From assembly GCA_946490195.1 (NCBI GenBank), contig CAMLWN010000005.1, forward strand, positions 1-43,830: DNA of 43,830 nucleotides. Direction: 5' to 3'. Shown here piece after piece: positions 1 through 1,584 of this stretch (the stretch's first letter is position 1; each line of letters starts with the position of its first letter). The notes beneath the pieces are model-generated. The model worked only from the letters and a program-made list of their open reading frames with translations, was not told the DNA's origin and did no database searches. Made by a program: the position numbers and the translations under genes. This DNA is from an uncultured Mycoplasmatota bacterium (GTDB taxonomy: Bacteria > Bacillota_I > Bacilli_A > RF39 > UBA660).

Positions 1-360
1 GGTTCTTCCCATTCTTTTAATCTCAATATCGTTTGGACTTCTTCGGCATTACTTTGCCATATAGTTGATGTGAGTAAGCCTTGAAATTTTGGTTCTTCCC
101 ATTCTTTTAATCTCAATATCGTTTGGACTTCTTCGGCATTACTTTTCCATATATTTGATGTGAGTAAGCCTTGAAATTTCGGTTCTTCCCATTCTTTTAA
201 ACTTAATATGGTTTGAATTTCTTTGGCATTACTATTCCATATAGTTGACGTGAGTAAACCTTGAAATTTTGGATCTTCCCATTCTTTTAAACTTAATATG
301 ATTTGAACTTCTGTAGCATTACTTTTCCATATGTTTGATGTGAGTAAGCTTTGAAATTTT
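1..360 (-). repeat. four direct 90-bp coding repeats
   Basis: Units 1-90, 91-180, 181-270 and 271-360 are in register with the reading frame. The two leftmost differ at only 3 of 90 positions by my reading; the other two are more diverged. This suggests recent duplication or gene conversion toward the 3' end of the gene. The array continues beyond the window. Confidence 0.95.
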
Positions 361-497
361 GGATTATTCCAATAAGGTAAATTAAGAATTTCTAGTACAG
401 TGTTATAGCTACATAGATATAGATAATCACTTTTTAAATGCTCTAAATTTCTTTTTTTTAATTCTTTATCGATTAATATTCTCTCTTCTGGATACAT
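1..497 (-). CDS. 30-residue tandem-repeat protein, 3' end outside window
   Basis: The ATG at 495-497 follows an AGAGGA ribosome site and opens a frame that stays open for 165 codons to the window edge, so the C-terminus is missing. After a non-repeated N-terminus of about 47 residues, the protein is built of exact 30-residue units with consensus PKFQGLLTS(N/T)IWxSNAxE, then VQTILxLKEWEE; four units are visible. Each unit should form two short helices, so an alpha-solenoid is likely. Counted from the Pro, unit position 10 runs Asn/Thr/Asn/Thr and position 13 Lys/Asn/Lys/Gln, while Trp12, Trp28 and the SNA core are invariant. No signal peptide is seen. It lies 31 bp downstream of prfA, behind that gene's terminator, with little room for its own promoter. 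I do not recognise the family; function is unknown. The reading frame itself is secure. Confidence 0.85.
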   Translation of the reverse strand, partial: MYPEERILIDKELKKRNLEHLKSDYLYLCSYNTVLEILNLPYWNNPKFQSLLTSNIWKSNATEVQIILSLKEWEDPKFQGLLTSTIWNSNAKEIQTILSLKEWEEPKFQGLLTSNIWKSNAEEVQTILRLKEWEEPKFQGLLTSTIWQSNAEEVQTILRLKEWEE

Positions 498-516: not shown

Positions 517-539
517 AAAAAAACAGGATTATTCTCCTG
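517..539 (-). terminator. Rho-independent terminator of the prfA operon
   Basis: On the minus strand CAGGA and TCCTG pair around a 6-nt loop, followed by seven T. The prfA stop codon lies at the stem-loop boundary. The stem is short (5 bp), so readthrough into the repeat-protein gene is plausible. Confidence 0.75.
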
Positions 540-1584
540 CTAGTTTTCTTTTTAAATCTTCAGTAATTAACGCTTCAATTATTGGATCTAATTCTCCATC
601 CATTACCCGATCTAAAGACATTACAGAAAAGCCAATTCGGTGATCTGTAACACGATTTTGTGGATAATTGTATGTTCTTATTTTCTCGCTTCGATCTCCT
701 GTTCCTATTTTACTCTTTCTTGTACTACCTAATTTTTGTTCTTTTTCTTGTTCCATTAAATCATAAAGTTTTACTCGTAATATTTTCATAGCTTTTTCTT
801 TATTTTTTAATTGGCTTCGTTCATTTTGACAAGTAACTACTGTATTGGTAGGTAAATGAGTGATTCGAACGGCAGAATTGGATGTATTTACTGATTGTCC
901 ACCAGCTCCACTTGAATGGTATACATCAATTTTTAAGTCACTTTCCTTAATTTCAATATCTACATCTTCTACTTCTGGCATGACTAATACTGTAGCTGTT
1001 GAAGTATGCACTCTACCTTGAGTTTCGGTTACTGGAACACGTTGAACTCGGTGAGCTCCACTTTCATATTTTAGTTTACTATAAACATTTTCTCCTTTAA
1101 TAGTACATTCTACTTGAGAAAATCCTCCTGATGTACCTTCTACTTGGTGGTCAATCTCAATTTTCCATCCTTGTTTTTCGGCATAGTATGTATACATTCT
1201 TAATAGGTCACCGGCAAAGATATTAGCTTCATCTCCACCAGCTGCACCTCTAATTTCCATGATAATATTTTTCCCGTCATTTTCATCTTTAGGAATTAAT
1301 AAAATTTCTAACTCATGATTTAATTGTTCTAATTTTGCTGTATTTTCTTCAATTTCTAATTCAGCCATTTCTCTTAATTCTGAATCATTTAGAACTTCTT
1401 TTGCTTCTTTTAAATGCTCTTCAGCTGTTTCATATTCTTTATATTTATCTACAATTTCTTTTAAATCACTTTGTTCTTTTGATAAAGCTTTAATTTTATT
1501 AAAATCGCTCATAATTTCTGGATTCATTAAAAGAGTCGTTAATTCTTCATATCTTGCTTTTATACTTTCTAATCTTTCTTTCAT
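529..1584 (-). CDS. prfA: peptide chain release factor 1
   Basis: RF1 reads UAA and UAG in the ribosomal A site and triggers peptidyl-tRNA hydrolysis. The 351-residue protein is normal length. It has the GGQ catalytic motif at 228-230 (in SSGAGGQSVNTS) and a PxT-type stop-recognition tripeptide, PVT, at 184-186; RF2 would carry SPF. The acidic helical N-terminal domain spans about 1-100. It is the last gene of ywiB-argS-rpoE-prfA, 45 bp after rpoE, rather than beside prmC as in B. subtilis. Several genes here end in TGA (ywiB, trmN6, rsmA), so an RF2 gene must exist elsewhere. A perfect DnaA box (659-667) lies inside the gene. Confidence 0.97.
   Translation of the reverse strand: MKERLESIKARYEELTTLLMNPEIMSDFNKIKALSKEQSDLKEIVDKYKEYETAEEHLKEAKEVLNDSELREMAELEIEENTAKLEQLNHELEILLIPKDENDGKNIIMEIRGAAGGDEANIFAGDLLRMYTYYAEKQGWKIEIDHQVEGTSGGFSQVECTIKGENVYSKLKYESGAHRVQRVPVTETQGRVHTSTATVLVMPEVEDVDIEIKESDLKIDVYHSSGAGGQSVNTSNSAVRITHLPTNTVVTCQNERSQLKNKEKAMKILRVKLYDLMEQEKEQKLGSTRKSKIGTGDRSEKIRTYNYPQNRVTDHRIGFSVMSLDRVMDGELDPIIEALITEDLKRKLAGE

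Follow-up and report, generated by a model that had tools for sequence, protein, structure and literature searches.

A gene cut by the contig edge behind prfA in an uncultured Mycoplasmatota bacterium encodes a tandem array of 30-residue units. We read its product, with a probability of roughly 60%, as a cytoplasmic alpha-solenoid of modular build with sequence-dependent binding to nucleic acid, most likely double-stranded DNA. The evidence comes from selection at unit positions 15 and 18, from the predicted fold, from other repeat types that share the family's C-terminal domain and partner gene, and from likeness to described DNA-binding proteins.

The window, meaning the whole stretch of DNA analysed (43,830 nucleotides), is an entire contig of a 1.01 Mb draft genome that comprises 52 contigs and is 80% complete. 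The repeat ORF (497..3, minus strand, 165 aa) begins with an ATG 31 bp behind prfA and is open at the contig edge. Its N-terminal 40 residues are followed by four exact 30-residue units, for which Tandem Repeats Finder gave a period of 90, 4.1 copies, a 90% match, no indels and a score of 556; as the contig edge cuts the array, four units is the minimum count for this gene. We start each unit at PEW or KEW (PEWxxxKFQxLLTS-15-IW-18-SN...), so that positions 10 and 13 of the first-pass annotation become 15 and 18, and its 17 and 24 become 22 and 29. The features at this end of the window are as follows.

529..1584, minus strand: prfA (peptide chain release factor 1), the upstream neighbour, present in 37 of 37 genus members
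522..541, minus strand: terminator-like hairpin and T run between prfA and the repeat gene, overlapping the prfA stop
378..497, minus strand: N-terminal cap region, residues 1-40 of the ORF translation, MYPEERILIDKELKKRNLEHLKSDYLYLCSYNTVLEILNL
288..377, minus strand: unit 1, PYWNNPKFQSLLTSNIWKSNATEVQIILSL, with N at position 15 (333-335) and K at position 18 (324-326)
198..287, minus strand: unit 2, KEWEDPKFQGLLTSTIWNSNAKEIQTILSL, with T at position 15 (243-245) and N at position 18 (234-236)
108..197, minus strand: unit 3, KEWEEPKFQGLLTSNIWKSNAEEVQTILRL, with N at position 15 (153-155) and K at position 18 (144-146)
18..107, minus strand: unit 4, KEWEEPKFQGLLTSTIWQSNAEEVQTILRL, with T at position 15 (63-65) and Q at position 18 (54-56), 3 nt away from unit 3
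3..17, minus strand: start of unit 5, KEWEE, cut at the contig edge

These units bear out what the first-pass annotation had described, namely four in-frame 90-bp repeats, two of them almost identical, with Asn and Thr alternating at position 15 (N, T, N, T) and a Lys/Asn/Lys/Gln series at position 18. Read as pairs, units 1 to 4 carry N-K, T-N, N-K and T-Q. Three of the 90 bases change between units 3 and 4: one change is silent and the other two give N15T and K18Q, so that the protein differences of this youngest pair are limited to positions 15 and 18. The Trp and the SNA motif had been called fixed. W17 and S19-N20 are indeed constant among the window units, but over 387 units, for which W17 was a selection criterion, S19 and N20 are frequent rather than invariant. 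The C-terminal domain and partner gene of the window copy, if present, lie beyond the contig.

The selection analysis covered these 387 units, from 47 loci, and compared same-locus units at least 90% identical in DNA. In these young pairs pN/pS was 0.46 overall, 2.76 at position 18 (95% CI 2.18-3.49) and 1.47 at position 15 (95% CI 1.12-1.93; both bootstrapped over 28 loci), and at most 1.18 at every other position. Four provisos apply: a few loci stand under two ids, units are non-independent, assembly may have collapsed some arrays, and a pN/pS taken between paralogues leaves gene conversion tracts out of account. Such effects would flatten a peak confined to two codons, not generate it. Position 18 tops variability in 20 of the 41 scored loci. 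Positions 22 and 29, the other two sites where variation had been said to concentrate, are variable but not above neutral (pN/pS 0.64 and 0.85), and surface positions 4 and 10 are near the neutral rate. Since only 15 and 18 lie clearly above neutrality, we count this pattern in favor of a modular protein. The patterned variation first noticed in four units thus has strong, independent support in 28 loci, and also in a sister type with 29-residue units, where the equivalent of position 15 is again the highest (pN/pS 2.03; residues T, Q and E), which we likewise count for modularity.

The residues used at the two sites are restricted. Of the 387 units, 366 (95%) have N, T or S at position 15; at position 18 the residues N, Q, K, H, S, T and R predominate. 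Acidic residues occur in 0 of 387 units at position 15 and in 2 of 387 at position 18, compared with 6.7% and 9.8% D/E expected from single-step non-synonymous changes. The two positions also co-vary beyond within-locus shuffles (z 3.8, 0/500), the strongest of the 12 pairs tested. In the sister type, E occupies the equivalent of position 15 in 15 of 57 units, so acid avoidance is no rule for the whole superfamily.

These data bear on a reading in which there is no functional modular surface and unequal crossing-over homogenizes the units while loosely constrained surface residues drift. Such drift would account for the near-neutral rate at several surface positions (4 and 10), and the disruption of the gene in close relatives, described below, is in keeping with it. 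However, drift cannot yield the value at position 18, nor a restricted N/T/S alphabet at a position 15 that evolves faster than neutral, and we regard this explanation as very improbable.

A modular solenoid that binds proteins or peptides as an adaptor or recognition protein, for instance one engaged in conflict with phages or mobile elements, would diversify as its protein targets change. Diversifying selection with unit turnover is also typical of arms-race binding proteins, and the units are slightly acidic (net -0.8 on average); net acidic units are unusual among nucleic-acid binders, and this counts against the DNA reading as well. The residues at the hypervariable sites, however, are polar almost throughout; position 15 draws on three letters, and hydrophobic variation is scant. 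In addition, PADLOC gave no real match, phages gave none for a sister-type member and viral contigs gave none for the 30-residue unit. We therefore consider a peptide binder distinctly unlikely. The viral structures searched also gave no match.

The predicted structures agree with the helical solenoid proposed from the window alone. AF2 models of the window protein (165 aa; pLDDT 96.2, pTM 0.87) and of a full-length relative (331 aa; pLDDT 92.5, pTM 0.81) are both confident solenoids in which DSSP assigns helices to residues 1-4, 6-9, 14-18 and 21-28 of each unit. The N-terminal cap region of the window model has helices at residues 3-15 and 31-38, and the same N-terminal region stands ahead of unit 1 in at least 20 relatives. 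Positions 15 and 18 would be neither buried nor scattered in these predictions. They stand in an i, i+3 relation on the short helix 14-18, on the face opposite the conserved I16 and W17, and by helix geometry, as distinct from a surface calculation, they would point off the core once per unit along the solenoid.

Foldseek searches against the PDB gave no significant match for either model. For the full-length model, chains of the TAL effector dHax3 (E about 1, TM 0.4-0.5) took most of the top places, and a single mitoribosomal assembly chain, 7odr_y, was also among them; the four-unit window model matched nothing. A TALE fold was considered but not adopted, as the matches at E about 1 came with the full-length model and did not recur with the window model. 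TAL effectors and TALE-likes do resemble the family in having uniform units with two hypervariable residues each, in addition to the weak dHax3 matches. In contrast, their units are about 34 residues long, compared with 30 here, and their hypervariable residues are adjacent in a loop rather than i, i+3 on a helix. The gene described here also sits beside prfA in a gut bacterium, with no signs of secretion seen. The TAL effector Pfam profile matched neither the window protein nor the further members scanned.

Relatives were gathered by searches with the C-terminus, then with the partner and then with the units, giving 51 loci in gut MAGs of Bacillota; the named records come from rabbit, rumen, goat, chicken and other sources. 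The array profile matched 27 of 386 genomes, and 22 of the 150 genera sampled, from the window's bacterial family; a further 395 genomes from the class and 392 from the phylum gave no match outside it. Within this sample the protein family is restricted to a single family of gut Bacilli with small genomes. The suggestion that the array can grow or shrink fits the relatives, whose unit runs range from 2 to at least 19, counts that are lower bounds because many contigs stop inside arrays. The proposed search for paralogues found two to four in tandem at some loci, such as four array genes at L087:1-3729 and two at L073:2143-5011, which differ in their 15/18 series. At L077:1235-5979, the two genes of a tandem pair (746 and 836 aa) consist almost entirely of 30-residue units.

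A shared C-terminal domain ends the arrays, and a gene for a partner of about 90 aa often adjoins. Sixty distinct genes have both a complete C-terminal domain and 300 bp or more of sequence behind it, and in 40 of them the partner lies directly downstream, a rate biased by the many loci that were found via the partner; in some other loci it sits just upstream of the array gene. Neither the 30-residue unit nor the C-terminal domain nor the partner is covered by a family in Pfam, NCBIfam or PADLOC, and the partner profile had no match among PDB sequences. Some profile matches were rejected: Pfam CBM_48 (E 5e-5) corresponds to no single stretch and sums weak scores over the repeats, and the DUF, RPN13 and PHROG matches likewise add up weak scores across repeats.

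Other repeat types likewise occur with this C-terminal domain and partner, namely the 29-residue 'HPELFTSxTLA' units, HA-domain arrays (PF03457, E 6.7e-49) and SAP-like arrays (PF02037 match). HA domains and SAP-like repeats are both linked to nucleic-acid binding, and we count their association with this domain and partner in favor of a nucleic-acid ligand. HA arrays followed by the family's C-terminal domain and then the partner gene occur at L012, L028, L031, L036, L038, L045 and L046. At L048:164-3267 (minus strand), SAP-like repeat proteins (PF02037, E 7.8e-7) flank a partner-like gene, one on each side. Weaker partner-like genes (E 1e-7 to 1e-10) stand behind long non-repeat proteins at L047, L049, L051, L053 and L054, and these long proteins have a C-terminal KISKLKVLRI-like motif in common.

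The nucleic acid could be single-stranded RNA, with each unit reading a base through positions 15 and 18 in the manner of PPR or PUF proteins and with a role in RNA processing or translation control. The N/T/S alphabet at position 15 resembles the fifth residue of PPR units, and position 18 adds polar N, Q, K, H, S, T and R to a pair of hypervariable residues. PPR proteins, too, are modular and helical and carry a polar code residue of the N/T/S type, but they are built from 35-residue, two-helix units, compared with 30-residue units here, and the Pfam scans of the window protein and of further members gave no PPR or PUF match. The closest described relatives, moreover, were isolated as binders of double-stranded DNA (PMC11417379). 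An RNA reader is, in our judgment, unlikely.

Those relatives are the pTERFs, described by Hu et al. (2024) in a screen of tandem-repeat proteins for DNA binding (PMC11417379). The source of pTERF1 is the MAG of a 'Clostridia bacterium' from the ruminant gut; its Kd for ACTNNNAGTC is 1.87 nM, pTERF2 binds a different motif, and differing repeat arrangements go with differing DNA motifs (PMC11417379). Like the family studied here, pTERFs are tandem helical repeats from MAGs, mostly of gut Bacillota, with a confident AF2 solenoid and without canonical mTERF motif features; pTERF1 lacks the mTERF proline/leucine pattern (PMC11417379). Two of our loci (L066 and L076, about 10 units each) come from rumen and omasum RGIG 'Clostridia bacterium' MAGs, apparently of the same data set as the pTERF1 MAG. 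Based on this origin and the missing proline/leucine pattern, the 30-residue family is likely to be pTERF, a likeness drawn from the description rather than from sequence. ACTNNNAGTC is absent around L066 and L076, which is uninformative as to pTERF1 identity.

The descriptions differ in part. pTERFs have 3-11 units, compared with runs of 2 to at least 19 here and at least four in the window, and three helices per unit, compared with three or four here depending on whether 1-4 and 6-9 count as one or two. The main text of the pTERF paper has no partner gene, no shared C-terminal domain with swapped repeats and no two-position selection (PMC11417379), and the other literature searched did not describe the family. 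The window protein probably belongs to a kind that was named recently, but whose selected code-like positions, partner and swapped repeats we did not find described. The nearest described family, pTERF, binds DNA (PMC11417379), a role that would be modular.

Mitochondrial and chloroplast mTERF proteins are also built from short helical motifs of about 30 residues, but they lack the tandem near-identical units seen here, and the mTERF profile PF02536 matched neither the window protein nor the further members scanned. An mTERF homology of the C-terminus was considered and rejected, as MTERF1 chains found at E 1.9-9.4 with a 5-sequence profile were lost with 31 sequences.

The place of the gene behind prfA had been called lineage-specific, and the genus agrees with this. 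In two same-genus relatives (L004 and L005), the repeat gene lies between prfA and prmC, then comes a 95-aa ORF, and the gene continues past the point of the window's cut with more units and then the C-terminal domain (KLLTPSIF...ALIHYLQDNQIPL...LKAKYHIDLKSL). Elsewhere in the genus, prmC directly follows prfA (L109, L114, L116). All 4 of the 4 relatives having the locus carry frameshifts or deletions. Both copies that lie between prfA and prmC are broken, by one frameshift, in the first unit, in G008 and by two in G013; G035, whose prfA is 99% identical to that of the window, retains just a 25-codon start, and G011 just a C-terminal remnant. TCCTGTTTTTT flanks the G011 deletion on both sides (L011:1495-1630; L004:2085-2120; window 522-541), with one copy at the prfA stop, where it forms the terminator-like hairpin, and one inside the repeat gene; judging from these copies, the loss is consistent with a deletion between them. 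Terminator-like hairpins numbered 2, compared with 0.6 expected from shuffles. Taken together, the broken or deleted copies and the direct prfA-prmC order elsewhere indicate that the repeat gene is lineage-specific and readily lost in this genus.

Neither the 3' part of the window gene nor a prmC orthologue was found in the window's own assembly, and given the four broken relatives, the window copy may be a decaying gene. Separately, window 452-484 has an 88% identical counterpart of 30 bp at G000:C7:24253-24282 (L002; E 2.3e-4), a likeness that is probably due to chance in AT-rich DNA.

For the DNA-binding solenoid that we favor, we propose that each 30-residue unit offers two polar side chains, at positions 15 and 18, on a short exposed helix. 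Unit duplication and homogenization would keep the scaffold uniform while positions 15 and 18 differ between units; the order of the pairs would then determine the bound sequence, and gain or loss of units would alter the target. The modular binding surface suggested by the first-pass annotation gains support from the selection at the two positions, and from pTERF and the residue alphabet we infer that DNA is the ligand and that specificity is set by 15 and 18. As the array is usually encoded with its ~90-aa partner, the two together are probably the working form, a site-specific regulator, and their complex may more tentatively be assigned to the regulation of transcription. The pTERF1 site is nearly palindromic (PMC11417379), and a simple linear code of one unit for one base is therefore not suggested.

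The C-terminal domain and partner point to a bacterial regulatory module of which we found no description in the literature searched, and the question of whether pTERFs are reprogrammable narrows to two named residues. If these residues set specificity, the hundreds of natural units in public MAGs would provide data for a code. Modular code-bearing binders such as TALE, PPR and PUF proteins are rare and useful. It is possible, at less than even odds, that the proteins described here form a new code-bearing family, in which units would read DNA through positions 15 and 18 with their own alphabet, unlike the TALE code of adjacent residues, and would act with a dedicated partner in a module with swappable IW, TLA, HA and SAP-like arrays. 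Were this so, the site-specific regulators of these gut bacteria would form a natural library that keeps evolving, and would supply a new programmable scaffold.
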